37,070 bases of DNA from an uncultured Bacteroidota bacterium (lineage in GTDB: Bacteria; Bacteroidota; Bacteroidia; Bacteroidales; GCA-2748055), in contig CAKZNC010000024.1 in assembly GCA_937129385.1 (NCBI GenBank), forward strand, positions 1 through 37,070, given 5' to 3'. Position 1 is the stretch's first letter, and every line of letters starts with the position of its first letter. The position numbers and the translations under genes are program-made. The notes under the pieces were generated by a model, which was not told the origin of the DNA, made no database searches, and saw only the letters and a list, made by a program, of their open reading frames with translations. Of the stretch, positions 10,814 to 36,483 are shown piece by piece.

Positions 10814-11341
10814 ATGAAGTACATATTCAACATGATCATTTTTGTCCTATTGATGAACTCCGGCTTGAAGGCACAGGTTGTCAATTCATCTGATCTTTCC
10901 GTCAGCGGGATAACTTTCAGATCGGAAAGCACCTGGAACCATTCTGAAACTGATCGGAATGATGTGCTCGGACTGGTGAACATGAACAGGAACCTCCAGC
11001 TGAAACTGTGGTTCCAGGATTTCGAGGGGACAGCAAAGCAGTGTCTTGTTGGAATTATGGACAGAGAGGGGTGCAGCATGCTGAAGTCACCTTTTACAAC
11101 GCGGGTTGACAACAGGGAGGCTACAGCAGTCATCGCGGGTAAGACTTCCGGTCATCGACCGGTAAAACTATTGATTCTTGCCATTCAACAGGGTAACGGG
11201 TATTACGTGGCGACATTCGAATGTCCCGAAGACAGTTTCCGTGATCACCTGCAGATGATGAACCGGTTGATCAGCTCGATCTCCCTGGATGATCCGCTAC
11301 AGAGCCAGGTATATTATGCCGATCAAAAGACAAGTTCGTAA
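10814..11341 (+). CDS. Small secreted protein of unknown function
   Basis: A 175-residue protein if started at the ATG at 10814, which gives a clean signal peptide (MKYIFNMIIFVLLMNSGLKA, cleaved before Gln). In-frame ATGs at 10796 and 10805 are possible; the open frame extends further upstream, but that extension has no signal-peptide character. The mature part is a small soluble domain. Its closing pattern (GYYVATFECPEDSFRDHLQM, then a helix ending LISSISLDD) is reminiscent of the PsbP/DcrB-like fold, where a strand is followed by a helix and a 'SI' ending, but this is only an impression. It is the only plus-strand gene in the first 21 kb, and its 3' end overlaps the end of the convergent GH-A hydrolase gene by 19 bp. 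No function can be assigned. Confidence 0.7.
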   Translation: MKYIFNMIIFVLLMNSGLKAQVVNSSDLSVSGITFRSESTWNHSETDRNDVLGLVNMNRNLQLKLWFQDFEGTAKQCLVGIMDREGCSMLKSPFTTRVDNREATAVIAGKTSGHRPVKLLILAIQQGNGYYVATFECPEDSFRDHLQMMNRLISSISLDDPLQSQVYYADQKTSS

Positions 11342-13530
11342 TAGATGGTCTTATGCACTGAACCATCTGCCATAAAACTCTTGCTATTGCAATTGATCAC
11401 TTCACCGGTCGGTTTGCCAACATGGTCAAGAATCCTCACCTCTTTGATCTTTCTGTCGAGGGTGAGCCTGAACTGGACCGGTTCCATGAGGATCGGCTGA
11501 ATTCCCGGGTCCAGCAATTCGGTCATCTCTTCATTGAATTTCATGTTCGTATTCCTGGCGCGAGCGACAGCAGTGACGATCATACTTTCACAATGATCCA
11601 GGTCCAACTCCCGGTCTGCACTGGTGATAAAGATCACCGAGAATGGTGTTTCTGAAACAATGGCCACCTGGCCAGCCCTGAGTTCCTTTCCTCCTGTAAA
11701 CCCAACAACACCTGATGAAAAGGGCGTTTCAAGGGTGAAGAATCCCTTTTCGGAATAATCCCAGGTAAGCTGACCCGTATTGGATTCAATGACCTTATTA
11801 ATGGTGTCCCAATACCTGTGGTAGTCACCCTCAAGGGTTTCGCGGAATTCATCTGCAAATGCGAGTTCAACCTTTCCAATTGCAAAAACCTCATTGGGTG
11901 GAGTACCGGTGATCTCCTTTTGATCCCAGTCCTGCCTCACAGATTCATCAAATCCGATCATGCCGTCCTGCAGGCTTGGAATATGCACATGACGGGTATG
12001 CACAACTTCACCCTCTTCGATCTCATCGCGATAGATCATGGCTGCTATGGCCGGATAAAGAGGAAGCTGCGTCGGGGCATTGACATTGTATACTCCGGGA
12101 GTATGGATTGTTTGGGTGAAATGGGGATAATCACTGGCAAACTGGTAGGAGGCATCCCAATCATTTAATCCGAGTCCGTATATACCCACAACTGCCGGGC
12201 CTTCGGCAATCCATTCATTTGGAGGAAGACTCATCCATTCTGACAGGGCAAAGGGCCGGTCAGAGATTTGCTGTCGGCCTGTACTCAGGAAACCGCTTCC
12301 GGGTGAAGAGAGCATGGAGGCGTTATTCATACTACCCGGAACGAGCCGGTGACCTGTACCGCCTCCGAAATAATTATGCCTGTCGATAAACCCCACGGAG
12401 CGGTCTGCCTCCAGGTTATAATAATGCGTGATACCGGCACCTGCCTGCCAGCACGACCCGACAATGGCACCCTTGTACCCGGTCTCACGGATCGCTTTTG
12501 CAAACCTGTCGTAAAAAGCAAGCTGCTCTTCATAGAGAAACCTTGCATGATCCCTGAGAAAAAGGGGAACAACCGTATCTCTTTCAGCATACTTGCTGTA
12601 TTCGTATCCATAGATACCATGACTGGCAACTGGCGTGATGTTGCATTTTTCCAGGTTCCAGTCTTCGTCTCTTACCGATCGGCCCCATTCAAATGCGGCT
12701 TCACCCCAGGCTGTTTCGAGCGCCTCCTGTGAGCCATATTTGTTCTCAAGCCAGCTACAGAATTTTTCCCGGTGAAGCTCTTTGTATGTAGGACACAATT
12801 CCATCATCTTGTCTGCCGTTGAAAACCAGATGTTGTCCTCGTTCTGCAATTCGATGAAATTGAGAGCCGGATCATCGGCGTAACGCAACCCGGTTTCCGG
12901 ATTTTTATGTTCCAGCATGTGTACAAGCAGATCAATATGGAGGTCCTGGATGTCTTCAGCAAAGTTGACAAGGCCAATGGTGCTGTAGCTAAGATGTCCG
13001 CCCATGTCGGCCCTGGCAATCTCATCATATGCCAGCAATCGCTCTTTGTCACCCGGGCGCAGTTTGTGGCCGTAGATCGGTGACCAGCCGTAGTAGATGC
13101 CGGCCTCCCTCAAAGATGCCTGGAAATAATCAAAATGATTCCACTTCTCCTGGGTGATACGGTCGGAACGAGTCTCCGACAATCCATGCTGCGTGAACTT
13201 GTGGAAACGAACGCCATTGACGCCGTAATGGGTCAACTGTTGCACCCATTGATCGATGGTTGCATCATCAGTAAATGGCCTGGCAGAACAGATATTCACT
13301 CCCCAGAATTTTACAGGCGTACCATCTTCAAATACAAAGTCATCACCCTCCATCTTGACAAATCCATGGGATCCCGCCGGTTTGTCCAGCCAGTCGGACA
13401 TGTCAATGACACTGCCATAAAAATTTTCATCTGGTTGAAATTCAAACCATTCGGGCTCTGTAAACGAAGTTTCTTTTTTTGAACAGGAAAAAAGAATTGT
13501 GAAAGCAACGAACAATACGGGGTATTTCAT
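11323..13530 (-). CDS. Clan GH-A type glycoside hydrolase, lipoprotein
   Basis: A 735-residue protein from the ATG at 13530, preceded by an A-rich leader and giving a compact lipoprotein signal (MKYPVLFVAFTILFSC). An ATG 12 codons upstream (13566) is possible but only adds a charged leader. An N-terminal beta domain leads into GTPVKFWGVNICSARPF, the usual opening of a GH5/GH42-like TIM barrel, and GVNGVRFHKF. The expected catalytic pair is visible: Glu231 in FIELQNED (acid/base after strand 4) and Glu431 in ALSEWMSLP (nucleophile after strand 7). The C-terminal roughly 200 residues form a beta-rich domain. I cannot assign the CAZy family; GH5-like subfamilies or related unclassified GH-A groups are the best candidates, so the substrate is unknown. 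It is followed on the same strand by the esterase and GH78 genes, with the small plus-strand gene in between. Confidence 0.85.
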   Translation of the reverse strand: MKYPVLFVAFTILFSCSKKETSFTEPEWFEFQPDENFYGSVIDMSDWLDKPAGSHGFVKMEGDDFVFEDGTPVKFWGVNICSARPFTDDATIDQWVQQLTHYGVNGVRFHKFTQHGLSETRSDRITQEKWNHFDYFQASLREAGIYYGWSPIYGHKLRPGDKERLLAYDEIARADMGGHLSYSTIGLVNFAEDIQDLHIDLLVHMLEHKNPETGLRYADDPALNFIELQNEDNIWFSTADKMMELCPTYKELHREKFCSWLENKYGSQEALETAWGEAAFEWGRSVRDEDWNLEKCNITPVASHGIYGYEYSKYAERDTVVPLFLRDHARFLYEEQLAFYDRFAKAIRETGYKGAIVGSCWQAGAGITHYYNLEADRSVGFIDRHNYFGGGTGHRLVPGSMNNASMLSSPGSGFLSTGRQQISDRPFALSEWMSLPPNEWIAEGPAVVGIYGLGLNDWDASYQFASDYPHFTQTIHTPGVYNVNAPTQLPLYPAIAAMIYRDEIEEGEVVHTRHVHIPSLQDGMIGFDESVRQDWDQKEITGTPPNEVFAIGKVELAFADEFRETLEGDYHRYWDTINKVIESNTGQLTWDYSEKGFFTLETPFSSGVVGFTGGKELRAGQVAIVSETPFSVIFITSADRELDLDHCESMIVTAVARARNTNMKFNEEMTELLDPGIQPILMEPVQFRLTLDRKIKEVRILDHVGKPTGEVINCNSKSFMADGSVHKTIYYELVF

Positions 13531-13709
13531 TTTGATCTTTTTGTTAGTAGTTTTCTGATCTTTCATTGTGGAGGTAATCCCGCAAAATCGATCAGTTCAA
13601 ATATAGAAAAAATGCTGATACTCTTTCAAACTGCGTTGCATGGATAATACCATCCAAGTTGAATGCGGAATCCCGGAAAAACTGAATAAGGATAGGAGAT
13701 GCCATCAAC

Positions 13710-26371: not shown

Positions 26372-28132
26372 ATGAAAAAAAATCAATACATTCTTACAAC
26401 CCTGCTGCTCATTGTTCTCTCTCCCTGCATATTGCTCTATGCGCAGAACAACATGGGGTTCAACTACCAGGCAGTCGCCCGTGATGGAGACGGAAAAATA
26501 TTGATAAATGAAGCGGTTACAGTTAATATCGGGATACTCAACGTAGACAATGCCAATGAATTGCTCTGGGAAGAACAGCATCAGCTTCTCACGAATAACC
26601 AGGGGCTATTTAGTCTCGTGGTTGGCACAGATCCGCAAAAAAAGGTGGATGGTGCAGTGGAATCCTTCTCAATGATTGATTGGGCAGGCGGAGATCATTC
26701 TCTTTTTGTAAAAGTCGCTGTTGGTGGAGGTGAATTCACAGACCTCGGGACGTCACCCATCATGGCAGTCCCCTATGCAATACTCTCCGAAGAGATTCGT
26801 CAGCCCATATCAAAGCTTACCATCGGGAACGCCGACGGGGTGCCACAAGAGGAGCCATTGTTTGAAGTGAGAAATTCAACAGGACGCCCTGTATTTGCCG
26901 TATATGAGAAAGAGGTATGGGTGTATACGGATCCGGAGGCAAAACCTTCCCAGAAGGGTGGATTCGCTGTTGGAGGTTATCGTACCGGGAAACAAAGTTT
27001 GCCTGGTCAGCGCTATTTCATGGTGGATCCCGACAGCGTGCGGGTCTATATCAACCAGGATCCCCTGAAAGGAATTAAAGGTGGTTTTGCAGTTGGTGGC
27101 TACAGGACAGGCAAAGCCGAATATGTGGAATATCTGAGTATCTCAAAAGACAGTACCAGGATGTTCGTGAATAGCAATTCTGAAGATCCCAGGAGGGGAG
27201 GTTTCGTAATCAGGGGAGAAAGTGTCGAGACCGGGGAAAGGGTTCCTTTCCTGTTCATGACTCCGGTCAATTATTTTATAGGTGAAGGTGCCGGCCGACG
27301 CAACAAAACAGGGTTATTCAACACCTTCCTGGGATTCCAGGCAGGTGAACATAATGAAACGGGCTCCCAGAACCTGCTGATCGGACTCCGCTCCGGTAGT
27401 CAGCTCGTTGCCGGAAGCAACAATGTTTACCTGGGTAATTTTACCGGTCAACAGAATGAAGGTGGAAATGACAATGTTTTTATCGGCAACAATGCTGGAA
27501 GGGAGAATTTTGGCAGCGGCAATGTATTTCTAGGCAGCAACGCCGGTAGCCTGAATCCCGGGAGTAACAATGTATTCATCGGGAACAACGCGGGTGACCT
27601 TATACAGGGAAGCAACCTGTTTGTTTTGGAAAATGGTACAAGAGATGAAGCCGGGAGCCTGATGGTTGGACGATTTGATCACGACATGCTCAGAATAAAT
27701 GCATTTATGGGAATCAACGCCAAGCCCGATTCTGCCTTTGCGATCACGACAGAAGGGAATATCGAAGCTACCGAAATAACTTCAACATCAGATGTGAGAC
27801 TTAAGAAAGAGATCAACGAGATAGAAAATGCCATTGCACTCGTCTCCGGACTGAATGGCATTACTTACCAGTGGAATACAGAGGATTATCCTGAACGCAA
27901 ATTTGAAGGGGGTACCCACCTCGGTTTCATTGCACAGGAGGTGGAAAAAGTGATGCCCGAACTTGTACGAACCAACAGCAAAGGCTACAAATCTGTGAAC
28001 TATACCAAGGTAAGTACGATCCTGGTTGAAGCAGTGAAAGAACAACAAAGAATGATCGAAGAGCGGGATCATAAGATCTCTGATCTGGAGGAAAGGATTG
28101 AAAGACTGGAATCGCTGGTTGGAGCAGAATAA
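26372..28132 (+). CDS. Secreted adhesin-like protein with peptidase S74 (endosialidase chaperone) C-terminus
   Basis: A 586-residue protein with a Sec signal peptide (cleavage near LLYAQ). Residues 26-145 form a domain common in Bacteroidota cell-surface proteins (MGFNYQAVARDGDGKI). Residues 195-302 carry three repeats of about 40 residues with core GGFAVGGYRTGK. Residues 303-415 form a YadA-head-like left-handed beta-roll with repeated GSNNVFIGNNAG units. The C-terminus (about 471-560) is an intramolecular chaperone of the S74 type (STSDVRLKKEI, GFIAQEVEKVMPELV, VNYTKVSTILVEAVKE). It ends in a coiled coil (555-586). S74 domains drive trimerisation and may cleave themselves off at the Ser-Asp site. 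I infer a trimeric surface fibre or adhesin. No phage genes are nearby and the signal peptide argues against a tail fibre. Confidence 0.88.
   Translation: MKKNQYILTTLLLIVLSPCILLYAQNNMGFNYQAVARDGDGKILINEAVTVNIGILNVDNANELLWEEQHQLLTNNQGLFSLVVGTDPQKKVDGAVESFSMIDWAGGDHSLFVKVAVGGGEFTDLGTSPIMAVPYAILSEEIRQPISKLTIGNADGVPQEEPLFEVRNSTGRPVFAVYEKEVWVYTDPEAKPSQKGGFAVGGYRTGKQSLPGQRYFMVDPDSVRVYINQDPLKGIKGGFAVGGYRTGKAEYVEYLSISKDSTRMFVNSNSEDPRRGGFVIRGESVETGERVPFLFMTPVNYFIGEGAGRRNKTGLFNTFLGFQAGEHNETGSQNLLIGLRSGSQLVAGSNNVYLGNFTGQQNEGGNDNVFIGNNAGRENFGSGNVFLGSNAGSLNPGSNNVFIGNNAGDLIQGSNLFVLENGTRDEAGSLMVGRFDHDMLRINAFMGINAKPDSAFAITTEGNIEATEITSTSDVRLKKEINEIENAIALVSGLNGITYQWNTEDYPERKFEGGTHLGFIAQEVEKVMPELVRTNSKGYKSVNYTKVSTILVEAVKEQQRMIEERDHKISDLEERIERLESLVGAE
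26954..27278 (+). repeat. Three tandem coding repeats (about 40 codons each) in the S74 protein gene
   Basis: The encoded units start at about residues 195, 236 and 275. Two share an identical GGFAVGGYRTGK core and all run on to a DSVRVYIN-like strand; the third (GGFVIRGESVETG) has diverged. The DNA of the two matching cores differs at several positions, so the duplication is old. Confidence 0.7.
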
Positions 28133-28149: not shown

Positions 28150-28833
28150 CTACCTGATCCTTAGTACATATTCAAGTGACTGTTCCTTCTCCTCATTGAA
28201 GATCAGGTACCTGTTGGTAACCGTTTTTGCATCTTCAGAGACTTCAACCTGTCCCTTCCGTACCTTCCTGACTTCCATCTCTTCAAGGATGACCTGGTTT
28301 ACGTAGGCAACTTCGGAGAACAATGCAGACAGGTCCATGCCCTCTGCTTCCGATGCCTCCGTGTCGAATTCATTTTTGATCTGTTGTAGGAAGTCATGTG
28401 CTGCAGTTCTTTCGAACTTTCTTCGCTTCATGACATAATATTCGGGAACCTCATCGCCCGATTCTTCCTCATTGTAAATGATCTGCATGCCCCGGTTGAG
28501 CGCCTCAATATCGGTAAAGTCAAAACTGCTGATTACAACATATCCGTCCTCCTCAGATTCCAGCCGGGTATTGTAAATCCCTTCAGTTGCATTCAATTTT
28601 TCCATTGTTTCATCGTAGTCTTCCTCTATATCCTGAAGGGGACTTTCAGCGGCTACCTCTTCACTTTCACCAAAGCCCTCCAGCATTTGCTTCAACTCAC
28701 TCATATCCAGCACCAGGCTGAATGTGCCCGATCCGTCCCGCTGCAACCTGACGATCTCCCTGATCTCAAAGCAGGATTGCAGGGACACACTGGCTATCAC
28801 GATAAGAATGACGATAAACCTGTTATATTTCAT
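28150..28833 (-). CDS. Lipoprotein of unknown function
   Basis: A 227-residue protein with a lipoprotein signal (ASVSLQSC, Cys21). The mature part is acidic and soluble, beginning FEIREIVRLQRDGSGTFSLV, a beta-hairpin-like opening seen in several poorly described bacterial lipoproteins. A glutamate-rich helical segment at about 70-105 follows, and the C-terminal part is strand-rich with ending RYLIFNEEKEQSLEYVLRIR. No catalytic motif is visible. It is convergent with the S74 protein gene and divergent from the sulfatase operon (126-bp gap). I do not recognise a named family; anchoring in the inner or outer membrane facing the periplasm is the most that can be said. Confidence 0.82.
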   Translation of the reverse strand: MKYNRFIVILIVIASVSLQSCFEIREIVRLQRDGSGTFSLVLDMSELKQMLEGFGESEEVAAESPLQDIEEDYDETMEKLNATEGIYNTRLESEEDGYVVISSFDFTDIEALNRGMQIIYNEEESGDEVPEYYVMKRRKFERTAAHDFLQQIKNEFDTEASEAEGMDLSALFSEVAYVNQVILEEMEVRKVRKGQVEVSEDAKTVTNRYLIFNEEKEQSLEYVLRIR

Positions 28834-28959
28834 GATAATCTTGTTTAAATAATTTTGGAAACAAGATAAGAAAAGATTTGTTGGTGGTCCATCCTTTTTT
28901 AAATGAACCTAAACACCTATTTTTACAGTCGTTCACCTGCTAACTAACCATTTTTGACT

Positions 28960-30498
28960 ATGATAAGGGTCTCCTTTTTATCCCTCATTCTGACACTGGC
29001 ATTTTTTATTGTATCCTGTGACAGAAGCTCTTCTGTGACTGAGATAACAAATGTTATCGTAATCGTAGGTGATGATCATGCAGCAAACGCTGTTGGATGC
29101 TATGGAAATGAAATAATCAGGACGCCCAACATTGACAGGCTTGCTTCATCAGGTATCCGTTTTGAGAATGCCTATTCCAATGCACCTGTCTGCAGTGCAT
29201 CCAGGCAGTCGATTCTTACCGGCAAATACCCGCATGCTACCGGAGTGACGCTACTTACCACGCCGTTCCCAGATGAGGGAAATATTACCATTGCAGAATA
29301 TTTGCGTGACAGGGGATATGAGACCGGAGTGGTGGGCAAGACCCATTTTAACAACAGGACCCACCCATTACCCGATCATGGTTTTGGCTCAAGTATGTCA
29401 CACTCAGGATATCGTGATTGGCTGTTGCAGCAGGATATGGAGCCCATTCCGGATTCGATCAGCGTCCTTCCGAAATGGCGCCCTTTCAGGGATTCTGCCA
29501 GAATTTGGCTCAACGCTGACGTATTGCCCTCGGCGGTGAGGCAGGAATATGGCAGTGCAGCATTTGATGCGATGAAGGCCATCGAATTTCTTGAGAATAA
29601 CAGGGATACAAACTTCTTTCTCTGGGTGGGTTTTCATGAACCTCACTCTCCCTTCAACTTTCCCCTGGAATATGCAGGTCGATATGACCCCGCAGATATG
29701 CCACTTCCGGAAGGAAGTCCGGAGGATGACCGCTTCGTGCCGGAAATATTCAGAGGACTTTCCGAAGCAGATAAGAGAGGGATCATTGCATCATATTATA
29801 CATCCGTGGAGTACCTCGACCATTACGTAGGTGAGATACTGGACGCAGTTGATGAACTCGGCCTTGACGAAAACACCCTGGTCGTTTACATGGGAGACCA
29901 GGGATACCTGCTGGGAGATCACAAACGTTTTGAGAAACATACCATGTGGGATCCGGCAATCAAAGCTCCACTGATCTTCAGGGTAGGTAATAAAAAGACA
30001 AAGAAGCAGAAAAACGATGCCCTTGTTCAGTTCATTGACGTTGTGCCGACCATACTTGATATTCTAGACCAGCCCCCAATGCCAGATGTTCAGGGGAAAA
30101 GCATGAGATACCTCCTGGAAACAAGGAATGCCAGGGGAAACGATTATGTATTTGCCGAATTCCTGGAAGACAACAAGGCGATGGTCACAGATGGCAAATA
30201 TAAATATGTGTATACCACTGGAAAATATGATCTCGGGCAGGGCTATGCCACCGGAGAGGGGCCGTCTGGCGTCCTTCATAAACTATATGATCTGCAAAAT
30301 GATCCCGGGGAGACCGTGAACCTGGCAGAGGTGCCTGGCTATGAAACCATCATGGAATCCCTACAGGCTGAAATGATTGCAATATTTATGGATACACACC
30401 CCGCAGCTGGTGAATGGGTGGATACCCTTTCAACTGGCCAGAAACTTGACTTCTTTTGTGAACCACCCGATGAGGGTGCAAAACGTGGTGTTGAATAA
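28960..30498 (+). CDS. Formylglycine-dependent sulfatase (S1 family), lipoprotein
   Basis: A 512-residue protein from the ATG at 28960 (a TTG two codons earlier is less likely). The signal ends in a lipobox with Cys20. The S1 signature CSASR begins at Cys78, which maturation converts to formylglycine; GDDH at 37-40 supplies metal-binding aspartates and YMGDQGYLLGDH (Asp313, Gln314) the second metal site. The sequence PNIDRLASSGIRFENAY is classic for the family. The enzyme removes sulfate esters from carbohydrates in the periplasm or at the outer membrane. It needs an anaerobic or aerobic maturase, which is not encoded here. The gene leads an operon with two rhamnosidase-type hydrolases (17 bp to the next gene), so the likely substrate is a sulfated glycan with rhamnose or a similar deoxysugar. 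The exact S1 subfamily cannot be told by eye. Confidence 0.94.
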   Translation: MIRVSFLSLILTLAFFIVSCDRSSSVTEITNVIVIVGDDHAANAVGCYGNEIIRTPNIDRLASSGIRFENAYSNAPVCSASRQSILTGKYPHATGVTLLTTPFPDEGNITIAEYLRDRGYETGVVGKTHFNNRTHPLPDHGFGSSMSHSGYRDWLLQQDMEPIPDSISVLPKWRPFRDSARIWLNADVLPSAVRQEYGSAAFDAMKAIEFLENNRDTNFFLWVGFHEPHSPFNFPLEYAGRYDPADMPLPEGSPEDDRFVPEIFRGLSEADKRGIIASYYTSVEYLDHYVGEILDAVDELGLDENTLVVYMGDQGYLLGDHKRFEKHTMWDPAIKAPLIFRVGNKKTKKQKNDALVQFIDVVPTILDILDQPPMPDVQGKSMRYLLETRNARGNDYVFAEFLEDNKAMVTDGKYKYVYTTGKYDLGQGYATGEGPSGVLHKLYDLQNDPGETVNLAEVPGYETIMESLQAEMIAIFMDTHPAAGEWVDTLSTGQKLDFFCEPPDEGAKRGVE

Positions 30499-30515
30499 AA
30501 AACAAATTTATACCT

Positions 30516-33356
30516 ATGAGAAATTTTTTATTGTTACTGTTGACGTCAATAATACTGGGAGGATGTGGGAAAATCACCCCGGAACCTCAATATGTATGGT
30601 CAGCACCGGGTGATTCGGGAAGGGCGGAATATGTGATGTTCAGAAATGTTTTCGAGGCACCTGAAAATGCCACATGTAAATTACACCTTTTCGCCGATTC
30701 AAGATATCACCTCCTCGTAAACGGGGAATTTGTCAATTTTGGTCCGGCCCGGTTTTACCCCGAAAATCCGCAGTACGACACCTATGATATCACTTCACTA
30801 CTGAGAAAAGGAGCCAACGTTGTTGCTGTGAAAGCCCTTTCAAATGGCACCTACACTTACCAGGTGCCTCTGAGTGAGGCCGGTTTTATCGCTTGGGGAG
30901 AGGTCCTGGACGACAGCAAGGTTGTTCATTCATTCTCTACTCCCGGAAATTGGGTTTGCAGGGAAATGCAGGGTTTTGACCGGCTGGCTCCGAAAATGAG
31001 TTTTGCCACCGGCGTGATGGAGGTGTTCGATGCCAGGAGAGATCCGGACGACTGGGCCGAGGTTGGTTTCGATGATGAAGACTGGAAAGAGGTGTCTGTG
31101 AAAGCTGACCAGGAGCATTGGGGTGAGCTCACCCCAAGGACGATTCCTCATTTGACCCAGGACAAACGACCAGTGAAGAAATTACTTGGGGCCTGGTCCC
31201 TCAAAACAGATGAAGATATCTACTCCTTTCGGGTGAAATCAGCAGACCGCACAAGGGGGGATTTTGGTAAGAATAAATATGCATTTGCCTATACCTACAT
31301 ATGGTCCCCTGAAAATCAGCAGGTGCGGACCGGACTGTGGTGGGGTGAGTATTGGCTGAACGGGGAGGGACCACTTGAAAACCTAGGATTGGAACCAGGC
31401 AGACCGGTAAGGAGTGATGTGATCCTGGATCTCAAACAGGGATGGAATTTCTTTTTTGTCAAATATGGAATTGTCTGGGCCAACTGGGAATTCTATATGG
31501 CCATACCCAAAAGTGCAGGGCTTGAACTTTCCCCGGAAAAGCAAAAGAGTGGAGATTTAAGATTCATGACTGCCGGACCGTTTACCGATGACGAAGAGAA
31601 ACTTGTGAAAAATCTTGAACTGCCATTCAGTTCGCCTGGTGACCTGCCTGATCTTAGTGCCGGGTGGGTGCCGAAAACAGATGATGATAAGGCCGGTAAT
31701 CCTGCCTGGGATGTTGCCTGGAGCTATTTTGACCATCCAGTTGATCCTGCAGGTAAAAATGGTTCAATGCAATTTGAAGGAGGGGAGCCTGTTGCCCTTG
31801 TATATGACATCGGTGGGAAAACACTGGGCAGATTCTATCTTGATATTGAGGCTGAAGCCGGTACAGAGATCGATATAGCTTTTGCAGAAGATTTGCAGGA
31901 CGGGCGACCATGGATCCTGAAACGAGCAGGACTTTATACAGCCGTAAAATTCATTGCAGATGAAGGCGAAAACCATTTAGAAAGTTTTAAACCCTACGGG
32001 GCACGTTACATTCAGGTTAACCTGACCGGGTACGATGACCAGGTAAAACTAAACGAAACAGGAATGATCAGTCAGACCTACCCATTTGAGCAGGTTGGGG
32101 ATTTTGAATGCTCAGATACATTACTGAATGCTATCTGGGACCTGGGATGGCGAACACTGTTGGTTTGTTCGGAAGACAGCTATACCGATACCCCATTCAG
32201 GGAAAGAGGGCTCTACGCGGGAGACGCCTTGCCAGAATATGCGATCACACTTGCTGGAAGCGGTGACAGCAGGCTGATGAAACAATGTACACATCTCTAT
32301 TCCCAGATGTATAACGACCTGATGCAACCTGGATCAGAACGCCAGTATACAAGTGTCAACCATATGGCAGATTATCCGCTGCTTACCCTTCTTTCATGGG
32401 TTTGGTCGGTAAACAGAACAGGTGACCTCGCCTATGCAGAAAAGTACTACGATGGGTACAGGAACATGATGGAACTTGTTGCTGAGAACAGGATGCAGAA
32501 TGGATTGCTTGATCATTCCAGGGCATTTATCGAGTGGACCCGGATTGATAAAGATGCTACGCTGACTGCTTTACAGTCGTTGGCTGCATATTGTTTCAGG
32601 TCGATGGCCTATGTTTCGGATATGCTGGGAAAAGGTGATGCGTCCTGGTTACTCGAAGAAGAAAAAAAGACCCTTGATGCAATGCACCAACTTTGCTGGG
32701 ACGGGGAAAAAGGAGCCTTCAGGGATGGTTTCAGGGATGGCGTACCCATCGACCACCATTACCCGATCTCCAGTATCTGGCCCTCCCTGTTTAATCAGAC
32801 AACCAGGGAGCAGGAAGCAAAACTCGAAGGTTTCTATGATGAAACACTAAGGGACATAGGAACAGAGAACAGGAACAGGCTCTCTACACCTTATGGCGGT
32901 TTCTATGTGATCGATGCACTCTACCGGAAAGGATACGCTGCTACCGCGGAATATTACATGAAACAATACTGGGGACCGATGATAAGGAAACACAACGATA
33001 CAGCCTGGGAAAATTTCGGGGATGGCAGTGATGGAGACGGACAGGGTACACTCAGCCATGCATGGAGTGGCGGTCCAACCTATCATATGACAAGACATAT
33101 CCTGGGTGCAGATCTCGGGTGGCCGGATTATACTTCGCCAGACACCCTGCATTTCGAGCCACAGACCAACTCAGTTACCTGGGCAAAAGGGGTGGTACCC
33201 CATTCCATGGGAACGATCACTGTCGACTGGAGAACAGAGGGGGATAAGCTTTATTTCAACTGTGAAGTTCCTGACGGGATCGCCTGGGATGTTCAGCCCC
33301 GTGGCATGCTTGCCGATAAAGAGTTGTATATTAACAATGAAAAAGTTACAAACTGA
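30516..33356 (+). CDS. GH78-like alpha-L-rhamnosidase family protein, lipoprotein
   Basis: A 946-residue protein with a lipoprotein signal (SIILGGC, Cys17). Two N-terminal beta-sandwich domains (about 30-350; RYHLLVNGEFVNFGPARF and TSLLRKGANVVAVKAL are typical) and a further jelly roll (about 400-520) precede an (alpha/alpha)6 barrel. The barrel contains DSYTDTPFRERGLYAGDA at about 554-571. This aligns with the GH78 signature, with Glu563 as candidate acid, but differs from the canonical DCPQRDERLGW found in the other rhamnosidase of this window. A candidate second acidic residue is Glu832 in TAWENFGDG, followed by SHAWSGGPTYHM. It probably cleaves alpha-L-rhamnosides or a related sugar. It is the middle gene of the sulfatase operon, 17 bp after the sulfatase and 4 bp before the GH106-like gene. 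Confidence 0.85.
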   Translation: MRNFLLLLLTSIILGGCGKITPEPQYVWSAPGDSGRAEYVMFRNVFEAPENATCKLHLFADSRYHLLVNGEFVNFGPARFYPENPQYDTYDITSLLRKGANVVAVKALSNGTYTYQVPLSEAGFIAWGEVLDDSKVVHSFSTPGNWVCREMQGFDRLAPKMSFATGVMEVFDARRDPDDWAEVGFDDEDWKEVSVKADQEHWGELTPRTIPHLTQDKRPVKKLLGAWSLKTDEDIYSFRVKSADRTRGDFGKNKYAFAYTYIWSPENQQVRTGLWWGEYWLNGEGPLENLGLEPGRPVRSDVILDLKQGWNFFFVKYGIVWANWEFYMAIPKSAGLELSPEKQKSGDLRFMTAGPFTDDEEKLVKNLELPFSSPGDLPDLSAGWVPKTDDDKAGNPAWDVAWSYFDHPVDPAGKNGSMQFEGGEPVALVYDIGGKTLGRFYLDIEAEAGTEIDIAFAEDLQDGRPWILKRAGLYTAVKFIADEGENHLESFKPYGARYIQVNLTGYDDQVKLNETGMISQTYPFEQVGDFECSDTLLNAIWDLGWRTLLVCSEDSYTDTPFRERGLYAGDALPEYAITLAGSGDSRLMKQCTHLYSQMYNDLMQPGSERQYTSVNHMADYPLLTLLSWVWSVNRTGDLAYAEKYYDGYRNMMELVAENRMQNGLLDHSRAFIEWTRIDKDATLTALQSLAAYCFRSMAYVSDMLGKGDASWLLEEEKKTLDAMHQLCWDGEKGAFRDGFRDGVPIDHHYPISSIWPSLFNQTTREQEAKLEGFYDETLRDIGTENRNRLSTPYGGFYVIDALYRKGYAATAEYYMKQYWGPMIRKHNDTAWENFGDGSDGDGQGTLSHAWSGGPTYHMTRHILGADLGWPDYTSPDTLHFEPQTNSVTWAKGVVPHSMGTITVDWRTEGDKLYFNCEVPDGIAWDVQPRGMLADKELYINNEKVTN

Positions 33357-33360
33357 TCTT

Positions 33361-36300
33361 ATGCGTACATTCTGTAAGTCTTTTCTGCTGTCTGGGCTGA
33401 TCCTGCTATCTGCCTGTGGTGAGGATATTCGGATGGATACTCACCTCACTACCTATGAACAAGTGTCAGGGCACTTTAAAAATGTTCCTGCATCCTATCG
33501 CACGGTTCCTTTCTGGGTGTGGAACGGGAAAATGACACGTGATGTGATCGATCGTCAACTCTCTGACTATGCCGAGAAGGGGTATGGGGGTGTTTTCGTT
33601 CATCCGCGGTATGGGTTGATCAATGATTATGCTTCGGAGGAGTGGTACGAGCTTGTGGATTACGCAAATACCCGTGCAAAGAGACTCGGTCTCGACCTCT
33701 GGCTGTACGATGAGAACTCATTCCCCAGTGGATTTGCCGGAGGCCACGTTCCTGCTGAAATGCCTGAATCCTATAACGAAGGACATGCACTTCGCCTGCA
33801 TGTGCAGGATACATTCAGGCTGGATCCTGAGGTGGAGTATGAACTGATCTACTTACAGGACGACAGCCTTGTTGATATCACCGCGACATATAAAGATTAT
33901 GTGGGTGAGAGAGGTGAGTATCTTCTGTATGAAAAAGTGTATTATCCTGTAAGGGATTGGTATGCAGGATATTCTTATGTTGATCTCATCAAGCCAGGAG
34001 TTACAGAGAAGTTCATTGAGGTGACCATGGATGGATATGAGCAAACCCTGGGGAAAGAATTCGGTGCATCAGTCCCCGGAATATTTACGGATGAACCCAA
34101 TATTGCGCCCCAGGGGGAGGGACACCTGATCAGGTGGACTCCCGATCTTTTCGACCGTTTCAGGGATAGATGGGGCTACAGTCTGGAACCTCACCTTGTT
34201 TCCCTCCAGGAAGATCTTCCGGGTGCAGGACGGATCCGGCATAATTATTACCAGCTGCTTCTTGAACTGTTTATAGAACGCTGGTCCAGGCCCTGGTACG
34301 AATATGGTGAAAACCATGACCTTGCATGGACGGGACATTACTGGGAGCATGGCTGGCCAAGCCCCCATCATGGTCCGGATAACATGGCCATGTATGCTTA
34401 TCACCAGGTGCCGGGAATTGATATGCTCTTTAATAGCTGGGAGGGTCGGCCGGATCAATTCGGAAATATCCGTGCAGTTCGGGAACTCAACAGTGTTGCA
34501 AACCAGCTGGGCAGGGTCAGAAAACTCAGCGAAACTTATGGTGCAGCTGGCTGGGAGCTGACCTTCGAGGATATGAAACGGAATGGTGACTGGGAATTTG
34601 TCCTTGGTGTGAACCTGATGAACCAGCATCTTTCATATCAGACATTACTGGGAGACAGGAAACATGACTTTCCGCAATCCTTTTCCTATCATGCTCCCTA
34701 CTGGGAAGATTTGCAGGTATTGAATGATTACTACGCAAGGTTGTCCCTGGCATTGAGCTCGGGAGAACAGGTAAATAAGGTACTGATCCTTGAACCGACA
34801 ACCTCTGCCTGGATGCACTATTCTGTAAACGGGGAGGCAGATGAGATTTCCATGATCAACGATGAGTTTAACAAATTGCTTACACTCCTTGAAAATGAGC
34901 AGATTGAATATGACCTTGGTTCGGAGAATATCATTAAAAACCATGGTCTAGCAAGTGATGGACGATTTGTAATAGGTGAGAGAAATTATAATTATGTGGT
35001 AATCCCCAGGTTCCTGACCAACTTGAACAGTGAGACGGTGGCGCTCCTGGAAGAATACCTGGATCAGGGGGGTACAGTGATTGCACTTTGCCAGGTACCG
35101 TCTTATATTGATGGACAGAAGACAGAAAAGATTGCAGATTTGTCATTGGAGTATTCTGATCAGTGGTTCTCCCTTGGTGGGTGCAACGATCCCCGTCTGA
35201 TCAACTACCTGAGACGTGATGATTTTGTTGTTGTTGAACAGACAGGAGGAGCACTGTTTCATATGCGCCGGCAACTGGAGAAAGGACAACTGTTGTTCCT
35301 TGTAAATTCCGACAAGAATGAGTCCTCGAATTTAAGGATGATGAGCCAGGGTGTAGATATTGCACACATGGATCTGTTCACCGGTGAGATCGAAAACTAT
35401 CCATGCGTACTGGCAGATAAAATCCTGAGTTTTGATGCAGAGATCGAACCCTGCGGCAGCCTGCTGCTTTATATCTCGGATGAAGATATCAGGGGTAAAA
35501 AGGGCAGGATCTCCAAGTGGTATGGCACAGAACAAGAGCTCAGGATCAGCAATATCGATGTGCAATTGCAGGAAGATAATGCATTTACACTTGACTATTG
35601 CAAGGTGATCATGGATGGAGATACTTCCGGATTGGAGTATTTCTATGATGCCCAGAACAAGATTTTCCGGCATCATGGATTTCCGAAAAATCCATGGGTG
35701 TCTGCATCACAATTCAAAACAGAGATCATCGACCAGGATACCTTCCCGAAGGGAACAGGTTTTACTGTACAATATCCTTTCTTCGTTGATACCGAATTCT
35801 CCACGAAAATTTTTAACCTCGTCGTGGAAAGGCCGGATTTGTATGAGGTCAGGTTAAATGAGACCTTGCTTGAACCTACAAAGGATCAGTGGTGGCTGGA
35901 CAGGAACTTTGGATTATACCGGATCACTGATGGGTTGGTGAGAGGTGAAAATTTTATCGAGATATCCATTGATCCGATGTCAGTGTATGCAGAGCTTGAA
36001 CCGGTTTACCTGGTGGGTGATTTTGATGTACTTCCCCTTGACCAGGGCTGGATCCTGGCAGCTTCCGAACAGAAAGAGCTCGGATCATGGAAAGAGCAGG
36101 GGATGCCCTTTTATTCAGACAAGGTAACCTATTCGGCAGAATTTGAACTTGAAGATGAGAAGCCGGTCAGAATACAGCTTGGAAACTGGAGTGGTACAGT
36201 CTCTTCCGTTACCGTAAACGGAGAGGATGCTGGTGAAATATTTATGAAGCCCTATGATCTGAGGATCGACAATTTTGTAAAACGTGGCAAAAACCAGGTG

Positions 36301-36483
36301 GAAGTGACTGTTTGCGGATCATTGAAAAATCTGCTGGGACCGCATCACAATGTGAGAAATCAAGGTATCGTGACTCCCTGGAGTTTTAAATATGCGCCAG
36401 GTCAGCAACCAGCTGGAACAGAATATGACCTGGTTGATTACGGGTTGTTTGAGACTTTCAGGGTATTCACATTGGAAAAATAG
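33361..36483 (+). CDS. GH106-like glycoside hydrolase (putative alpha-L-rhamnosidase), lipoprotein
   Basis: A 1040-residue protein started at the ATG at 33361, which gives an ideal lipoprotein signal (LILLSAC, Cys19) and lies 4 bp after the preceding stop. The frame is open another 85 codons upstream, but that part overlaps the GH78-like gene and reads as shadow sequence. The N-terminal catalytic region opens with VPFWVWNGKMTRDVIDRQL and GYGGVFVHPRYGL, then LDLWLYDENSFPSGFAGG (112-129), a pattern of GH106-like and related unclassified TIM-barrel hydrolases. Candidate catalytic acids are Glu245 in IFTDEPN and Glu391 in LSETYGAAGWE. The C-terminal portion (about 920-1030) is a GH2-type sugar-binding jelly roll (RIQLGNWSGTVSSVTVNGEDAG). 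Known GH106 enzymes are alpha-L-rhamnosidases; the broader group may have other activities. It closes the sulfatase operon. Confidence 0.82.
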   Translation: MRTFCKSFLLSGLILLSACGEDIRMDTHLTTYEQVSGHFKNVPASYRTVPFWVWNGKMTRDVIDRQLSDYAEKGYGGVFVHPRYGLINDYASEEWYELVDYANTRAKRLGLDLWLYDENSFPSGFAGGHVPAEMPESYNEGHALRLHVQDTFRLDPEVEYELIYLQDDSLVDITATYKDYVGERGEYLLYEKVYYPVRDWYAGYSYVDLIKPGVTEKFIEVTMDGYEQTLGKEFGASVPGIFTDEPNIAPQGEGHLIRWTPDLFDRFRDRWGYSLEPHLVSLQEDLPGAGRIRHNYYQLLLELFIERWSRPWYEYGENHDLAWTGHYWEHGWPSPHHGPDNMAMYAYHQVPGIDMLFNSWEGRPDQFGNIRAVRELNSVANQLGRVRKLSETYGAAGWELTFEDMKRNGDWEFVLGVNLMNQHLSYQTLLGDRKHDFPQSFSYHAPYWEDLQVLNDYYARLSLALSSGEQVNKVLILEPTTSAWMHYSVNGEADEISMINDEFNKLLTLLENEQIEYDLGSENIIKNHGLASDGRFVIGERNYNYVVIPRFLTNLNSETVALLEEYLDQGGTVIALCQVPSYIDGQKTEKIADLSLEYSDQWFSLGGCNDPRLINYLRRDDFVVVEQTGGALFHMRRQLEKGQLLFLVNSDKNESSNLRMMSQGVDIAHMDLFTGEIENYPCVLADKILSFDAEIEPCGSLLLYISDEDIRGKKGRISKWYGTEQELRISNIDVQLQEDNAFTLDYCKVIMDGDTSGLEYFYDAQNKIFRHHGFPKNPWVSASQFKTEIIDQDTFPKGTGFTVQYPFFVDTEFSTKIFNLVVERPDLYEVRLNETLLEPTKDQWWLDRNFGLYRITDGLVRGENFIEISIDPMSVYAELEPVYLVGDFDVLPLDQGWILAASEQKELGSWKEQGMPFYSDKVTYSAEFELEDEKPVRIQLGNWSGTVSSVTVNGEDAGEIFMKPYDLRIDNFVKRGKNQVEVTVCGSLKNLLGPHHNVRNQGIVTPWSFKYAPGQQPAGTEYDLVDYGLFETFRVFTLEK

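Follow-up and report, generated by a model that had tools for sequence, protein, structure and literature searches.

Combinations of S1 family sulfatases with the rhamnosidase families GH78 and GH106 (GH, glycoside hydrolase) are already in print. The ulvan locus of Formosa agariphila holds the S1 sulfatases P36_S1_25, P18_S1_7 and P32_S1_8 together with GH78 (PMC9096561); P18_S1_7 (PDB entry 6hhm) is a 2-sulfo-xylose ulvan sulfatase and P36_S1_25 (6hr5) a 3-sulfo-rhamnose sulfatase (PMC9096561), and 6hr5 was deposited under the entry name alpha-L-rhamnosidase/sulfatase GH78. For Pseudoalteromonas marina, work published in 2026 describes S1 sulfatases, GH78 and GH106 in what is proposed as an ulvan locus (PMC13050008). 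In Verrucomicrobiota metagenome-assembled genomes from diatom blooms, GH78 and GH106 were found in contexts surrounded by sulfatases, and these bacteria were read as degraders of sulfated methyl pentoses (PMC8857213). Here we analyse a gene trio at positions 28960-36483 of a 37,070-bp contig (CAKZNC010000024.1, assembly GCA_937129385.1) from an uncultured Bacteroidota bacterium of the order Bacteroidales, which encodes on the plus strand, in this order, an S1 sulfatase, a GH78-type protein and a GH106-type protein. The window denotes this whole contig, C24 among the 236 contigs of a 4.28-Mb genome, and GH78L and GH106L denote the window's GH78-like and GH106-like proteins with their respective relatives. 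On balance, we favour the reading that the trio encodes a set of lipoprotein exo-enzymes that would desulfate, and release rhamnose from, a sulfated, rhamnose-containing glycan.

The three genes and their products

An earlier note on this DNA had described three same-strand genes with 17- and 4-bp gaps, and the open reading frame (ORF) coordinates bear this out (gaps at 30499-30515 and 33357-33360); the genes may be co-transcribed. The sulfatase ORF has an alternative TTG start at 28954. The start of the GH106-like gene was placed at the ATG that opens a signal; the mechanical ORF begins at GTG 33106, inside the GH78 gene. The lipoprotein signals that the note had reported on all three proteins were recovered by eye as lipobox-like IVSC, LGGC and LSAC in the N-termini of the sulfatase, the GH78-like and the GH106-like protein respectively, and are consistent with a location as lipoproteins.

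The first protein matched PF00884 with 203.5 bits (curated cut-off 25) and has the CSASR formylglycine motif intact at residues 78-82, as the note had also stated. The motif is kept in alignment A3, comprising the window sulfatase and eight relatives at 47-71% identity (nine sequences), but with Ser for the motif Cys in one of the nine (L121). Residues D38, D39, R82, K89, K127, H129, H229, D313 and K326 are invariant in A3, and we take them to be the conserved metal- and sulfate-binding residues of S1 sulfatases. The best solved relatives in a single-sequence search were 6hhm (1.7e-45) and 4upi (1.9e-45), with 6hr5 at only 2.8e-30; when the sulfatase profile was compared with the PDB, the top ten entries ranged from 8e-59 to 1.5e-53 under names of mixed specificity, with 6hr5 at 8.5e-46. 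The substrate of the sulfatase cannot be named, because the profile scores are flat and 6hhm outscores 6hr5. Proteins of the sulfatase-maturase type are present in the genome (PF03781, five matches, three with E < 1e-33).

Both large hydrolases exceeded their Pfam cut-offs and have catalytic residues largely in place, in agreement with the rhamnosidase families named in the note, whose "-like" wording was fair because both match the Pfam models weakly. For the GH78-like protein, scores and cut-offs were 50.6/24.5 for PF17389, 43.7/25 for PF08531, 26.2/22.1 for PF17390 and 24.9/22.2 for PF05592, and phmmer placed RhaB from Bacillus sp. GL1 (2okx) at 2.3e-69. An AlphaFold model built from 24 sequences (mean predicted local distance difference test, pLDDT, 86.3; loops 563-565 and 837-847 below 50) has the (alpha/alpha)6 catalytic domain and beta-sandwich domains of GH78 and aligned with 2okx at Z 40.4 and root-mean-square deviation 3.6 over 884 residues with 24% identity, followed by other GH78 structures; the first non-GH78 enzyme stood at Z 25.8. 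The acid E563 and base E832 are invariant in alignment A4 (24/24 GH78L sequences, window included). Five further rhamnose-site residues of KoRha were mapped by motif, since chain and paper numbering differ, leaving out Tyr284, Trp335, Phe338 and Tyr498; the roles of the KoRha acid, base and rhamnose-site residues follow PMC4690510. D570, W674, H848 and W850 are kept and invariant in A4. Of the sandwiching aromatics Trp226/Trp341 of KoRha, a binding feature and not a family-defining one, W674 is kept and the Trp226 position is Tyr567. The motif DTPFRERGLYAGD occurs in most members of this RhaB-like GH78 subgroup with invariant Tyr567. Judged by sequence and predicted fold, the GH78-like protein is a distant, full-length GH78 of the RhaB-like subgroup.

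The GH106-like protein matched PF17132 with 68.6 bits (cut-off 29). The GH106L profile reached 6q2f (2.9e-29) and 5mwk/5mqm (3e-27), and its hhalign comparison with two canonical GH106 proteins gave a probability of 99.9 over 809 columns. In alignments to 6q2f and L072, the catalytic base of BT0986, E593, corresponds to E391, which is invariant in alignment A2 (19/19 GH106L sequences, window included). The BT0986 pattern D458-S459-x-E461 is not found, the window having D244-E245-P246-N247, and the E538 position of BT0986 is H326. Ram106B and Niabella GH106 enzymes are active rhamnosidases with DE for DS, His for E538 and Asp for E561 (PMC6828813). The DE pair and H326 agree with this pattern, as compared by published residue descriptions only, and the alignment did not place the E561 position. 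By its alignments, the protein keeps the catalytic base and, at the positions that could be placed, resembles the Ram106B/Niabella type in its active-site pattern, not the BT0986 type.

No GH106L relative was confirmed in viral contigs. In one locus (L058:281-6012), a single frame of at least 1910 aa, open up to the contig end, joins GH106L to CHB_HEX_C, PA14 and regulator-propeller domains; a GH106L-sulfatase gene fusion was considered for it and rejected, as these partners are not a sulfatase.

Table 1. Features of the window with their positions, strand and basis
Feature	Position	Strand	Basis or remark
DUF362 + CBM9 protein, cut by contig end	1-1996	-	
Carbohydrate cluster: GH28, canonical GH78, esterase, GH2 with LamG domain, GH10, weak arabinofuranosidase-like protein	1-21714	-	
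Orphan, 747 aa, only marginal GH42 match	11323-13566	-	
227-aa protein without Pfam match	28150..28833	-	synteny marker of slot in G024, G025, G027
Divergent intergenic region, 126 bp, upstream of trio	28834..28959	.	one TAnnTTTG match, 28850-28857 (+)
S1 family sulfatase, lipoprotein-type signal, 512 aa from ATG	28960..30498	+	ORF, Pfam, PDB searches, alignment
CSASR formylglycine motif, sulfatase residues 78-82	29191..29205	+	coordinates computed from residue numbers
GH78 family, RhaB-like subgroup, lipoprotein-type signal, 946 aa	30516..33356	+	Pfam, alignments, predicted fold
GH78 acid region ERGLYAGD, E563 (acid) to D570	32202..32225	+	coordinates computed
Putative catalytic base E832 of GH78-like protein	33009..33011	+	coordinates computed
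GH106 family, Ram106B-like active-site pattern, lipoprotein-type signal, 1040 aa	33361..36483	+	Pfam, profile alignments
GH106 D244-E245 (DE replacing DSxE of BT0986-type enzymes)	34090..34095	+	coordinates computed
GH106 E391, aligned to catalytic base (E593 of BT0986)	34531..34533	+	coordinates computed
Carotenoid isomerase/desaturase-like gene, cut by contig end	36505..37068	-	other-side marker in G025, G026, G027

Gene neighbourhoods and history of the slot

Relatives were counted in 28 genomes of the family and in 393 genomes sampled from the larger order. In the order searches, scoring covered the two or three best candidates of each genome, so the counts are lower bounds; genome counts include the window's own genome, and the neighbour-recognition profiles were built from few sequences and can miss genes. 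GH106L was found in at least 28 of the 393 order genomes (E up to 1e-60) and in 13 family genomes (E up to 1e-40). For GH78L, the family search gave relatives in 7 genomes (E up to 1e-60) and the order search in at least 2 (E up to 1e-80); a further 31 named loci hold a relative, among them a remote one at 22%. The sulfatase has close relatives at no fewer than eight places in five order genomes (E up to 1e-75), and four of these five genomes also hold GH106L, present in 28 of 393 (Fisher p 1e-4, uncorrected for kinship); two of the four are congeneric, and G040 and G064 carry the two genes on separate contigs. At four of the eight places (the window, G026:C17, G026:C30 and G040:C230), a GH78 or GH106 match lies next to the sulfatase relative or one gene away.

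A sulfatase match lies within 5 kb of GH106L in 10 of 27 context rows, the window among them; several of the 27 come from one slot in related genomes and are hence non-independent. The sulfatase is the direct same-strand upstream neighbour in four rows (G026, G024, G016 and G138). Another GH78 or GH106 match falls within 5 kb in seven rows, and GH78 lies near GH106L in G272, G069, G131 and G342. GH78L is adjoined by a sulfatase in L083, L094 and L097, the last also with SusC- and SusD-like genes (recognised by few-sequence profiles alone), and by a canonical GH106 in L072. The association between sulfatases and rhamnosidase-type genes is real but moderate.

Two further arrangements were seen around GH78L. 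In L085:3151-17998, a PF03781 protein of the sulfatase-maturase type lies directly downstream, with four sulfatase matches around. In L016:7566-10175, L017:8890-10974 and L013:3-1226, the gene directly upstream encodes a protein with no Pfam match (scanned for L016), 869 aa where complete and with a Tat-like N-terminus.

The complete trio was found as a unit in the window genome only, in searches of the family genomes, the order sample and the fetched loci. Parts of it recur in the same slot. In the genus mates G027 and G025, GH106L occupies the slot without a sulfatase, flanked by the 227-aa gene on one side and the carotenoid isomerase-like gene on the other. In a third genus mate, G026, a sulfatase precedes GH106L beside the carotenoid isomerase-like gene, and in G024, from another genus of the family, the same pair adjoins the 227-aa gene at the end of a contig; the gap is 47 bp in G026 and 11 bp in G024, with sulfatase identities of 71 and 67%. 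Among these five genomes, a GH78 gene lies between sulfatase and GH106L in the window only. The GH106L ORF in the slot of G025 (L129:7140-9698) has only 852 aa, at 44% identity over the matched part.

A tree of 28 GH78L rows was built by a quick method with one support value, leaving out apparent duplicates and rows below 700 aa. The window GH78L stood apart from the five other family rows, and grouping them together was rejected (approximately unbiased test, p 2.7e-5). It fell into a nine-row set with support 96, together with L072, L097, L080, L073, L090, L076, L077 and L088. Next to GH78L in this set are a canonical GH106 (L072) and SusC-, SusD- and sulfatase genes (L097), with sulfatase matches (L080) or relatives of the window gene at 11323-13566 (L073, L090) nearby; L076, L077 and L088 have no such neighbours in the stretch examined. 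Because the window GH78L groups apart from the family copies and the pair occurs without GH78 in relatives, the GH78 gene is probably an arrival from elsewhere that came to lie within an older pair of sulfatase and GH106L. The insertion would not be recent because composition is even: the gene's GC content of 48.2% is close to the 47.7 and 46.5% of the neighbours and gives no hint of recent import.

Substrate, rival readings and the rest of the contig

In the favoured reading, the sulfatase, matured to formylglycine at C78, would remove a sulfate ester that blocks a chain end, a chemistry known for the family, with the substrate presumed. The GH106-type enzyme, the older partner, would then free terminal alpha-L-rhamnose with the conserved E391 as base. 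The RhaB-like GH78, the later insertion, would act on alpha-L-rhamnose that is linked differently or stands in a different context, freeing it through the inverting mechanism of its family with E563 as acid and E832 as base, on the strength of conserved residues and predicted fold. Rhamnose release by the two hydrolases is likely from their sequences. The rhamnose could be used inside the cell, an L-rhamnose isomerase gene being present in the genome (PF06134, one match, 2.5e-171), and uptake and backbone cutting would fall to other genes of the genome, perhaps those of the cluster at 2-21.7 kb among them. The earlier note's scheme of desulfation followed by trimming keeps its outline, with the hydrolase families, the intact sulfatase, the isomerase, the maturases and the sulfatases beside relatives in its favour; its sulfated rhamnose as the sulfatase substrate was not supported, given the flat scores and the better match to 6hhm.

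Several observations weigh against the favoured reading. The sulfatase scores higher to the 2-sulfo-xylose enzyme than to the rhamnose-3-sulfatase, and its profile scores to known sulfatases are flat. The position of the rhamnose-stacking Trp226 of KoRha is Tyr567 throughout A4, and the general-acid position of BT0986 is Asn247. No sulfatase match lies within 5 kb in 17 of the 27 GH106L context rows, and one does in only 6 of 38 GH78L rows (6 of 31 once seven apparent second copies of the same contig, with equal lengths or spacings, are dropped). At four of the eight sulfatase places (G040:C55, G354:C65, G000:C91 and G064:C75), the fetched stretch shows neither a GH78 nor a GH106 match. One sulfatase neighbour could also be chance, because sulfatases are common in the genome (48 PF00884 matches, 47 over the cut-off, some being parts of one gene).

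If these points prevailed, the trio might be a module for non-sulfated rhamnose side chains, pectin- or exopolysaccharide-like, with the sulfatase an unrelated neighbour or acting on another residue such as xylose. The higher score to 6hhm would suit such a module, as would the GH28, canonical GH78, GH2, GH10 and esterase genes on the same contig, the GH106L genes without sulfatase in the slot of G027 and G025, and G272, where a GH106L relative lies near canonical GH78, GH88 and GH43 with no sulfatase match within 5 kb. We consider it somewhat unlikely; the closely spaced sulfatase-GH106L pair is kept in G026 and G024, and other sulfatases lie directly upstream of GH106L in G016 and G138. Within the favoured reading, a special case would be a side-chain module for ulvan or rhamnan sulfate, the substrates that the note had suggested. 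The Pfam scan covered 19 window proteins, out of 21 ORFs kept, and recognised no SusC/SusD, lyase, GH105 or polymer-specific marker among them (no search for ulvan-lyase families was made elsewhere in the genome), and the PDB profile scores are flat as to sulfatase subfamily. Even with GH106, GH78 and sulfatases together in the P. marina locus, and with an ulvan enzyme as the sulfatase's top match among solved structures, this special case appears quite unlikely and the suggestion was not supported. The missing SusCD and lyase genes say little, because the window is a complete contig and sequence beyond its ends is not covered. Their absence nearby, which the note had remarked on, holds for the scanned proteins, but the contig end cuts the flank and a carbohydrate cluster lies about 7 kb upstream; the note's "distinct module" was not supported, as the trio was found in this genome only and SusCD absence cannot be judged on a cut contig.

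That minus-strand cluster ends at 21.7 kb and also contains a MacB-type permease and a fatty-acid desaturase. The orphan within it is rare in the family (2/28 genomes, its own and G019). The 66 loci (0.99 Mb) fetched with the trio in mind yielded three relatives. In L073 the relative immediately precedes GH78L, in L090 it stands one gene away from GH78L on the opposite strand, and in L121 it immediately follows a sulfatase relative. Such recurrence by chance has p 1.6e-7 at the family's rate and 1.5e-4 at a tenfold rate, the loci being from other lineages whose own rate may differ. Because orphan relatives recur near GH78L or sulfatase relatives, there is a hint that cluster and trio serve one substrate, and the orphan is a candidate for an unnamed enzyme of the same pathway. 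The DUF362-CBM9 protein, relatives of which lie beside or near GH78L in L017, L019 and L074, was rejected as a link and not used as evidence because it is common (39 other rows; 15/28 family genomes, its own included).

Upstream of the trio, at 26372-28132 (+), lies a gene whose product has an N-terminus of the secretion type and carries a Peptidase_S74 (intramolecular chaperone) domain at its C-terminus; downstream, the contig ends 587 bp past GH106L. TAnnTTTG is rarer than chance in the window (11 matches against 19.8 expected), and by itself the match upstream of the trio is no promoter evidence. Promoter-like sites are no commoner than in shuffles (12 against 12.7). Terminator-like sites are commoner than in shuffles (12 against 6.3, standard deviation 2.9), but each one falls inside a gene of the trio, leaving both gaps without any.

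A more far-reaching version would treat the Tyr567 RhaB-like GH78 subgroup and the lipoprotein Ram106B-like GH106 subgroup as two rhamnosidase clades specialised for sulfated rhamnoglycans, acting with a sulfatase clade of new specificity in a lyase-free, exo-only stripping of sulfated rhamnose side chains, with the orphan as a further enzyme of the pathway. We regard this combined picture as speculative and improbable.

Comparison with known systems

A literature search found no report that joins rhamnan sulfate with a rhamnosidase and a sulfatase. The trio shares S1 sulfatases and GH78 with the F. agariphila locus, and GH106 in addition with that of P. marina. Unlike both, the window contig has no recognised lyase or transporter, its sulfatase is not close to S1_25 and its GH106 is Ram106B-like. 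The Verrucomicrobiota contexts belong to another phylum and also include GH36 and GH2, with no comparable three-gene unit in the accessible part of that paper (PMC8857213).

At the level of single enzymes, RhaB (2okx) matches the predicted fold of the window GH78L over its full length, and the two are alike in acid and base; GH78L differs in its 24% identity, Tyr567 for the stacking Trp and a lipoprotein-type signal. The Ram106B enzymes of Thermotoga, Caldicellulosiruptor and Thermoclostridium and the Niabella enzyme are, by published description (PMC6828813), like the window GH106-like protein in DE, His and base, and the latter differs from Ram106B enzymes in its lipoprotein-type signal.

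The trio is a compact set of three expressible enzymes with which to study how bacteria trim sulfated rhamnose glycans, and it ties two little-studied rhamnosidase subgroups to sulfatases. It may also show stepwise assembly in one chromosomal slot, from GH106 alone to sulfatase plus GH106 and then to the inserted GH78. Because reports on Verrucomicrobiota and P. marina already describe sulfatases together with GH78 and GH106 (PMC8857213, PMC13050008), the trio is a combination of known type, to which it adds a modest further example.

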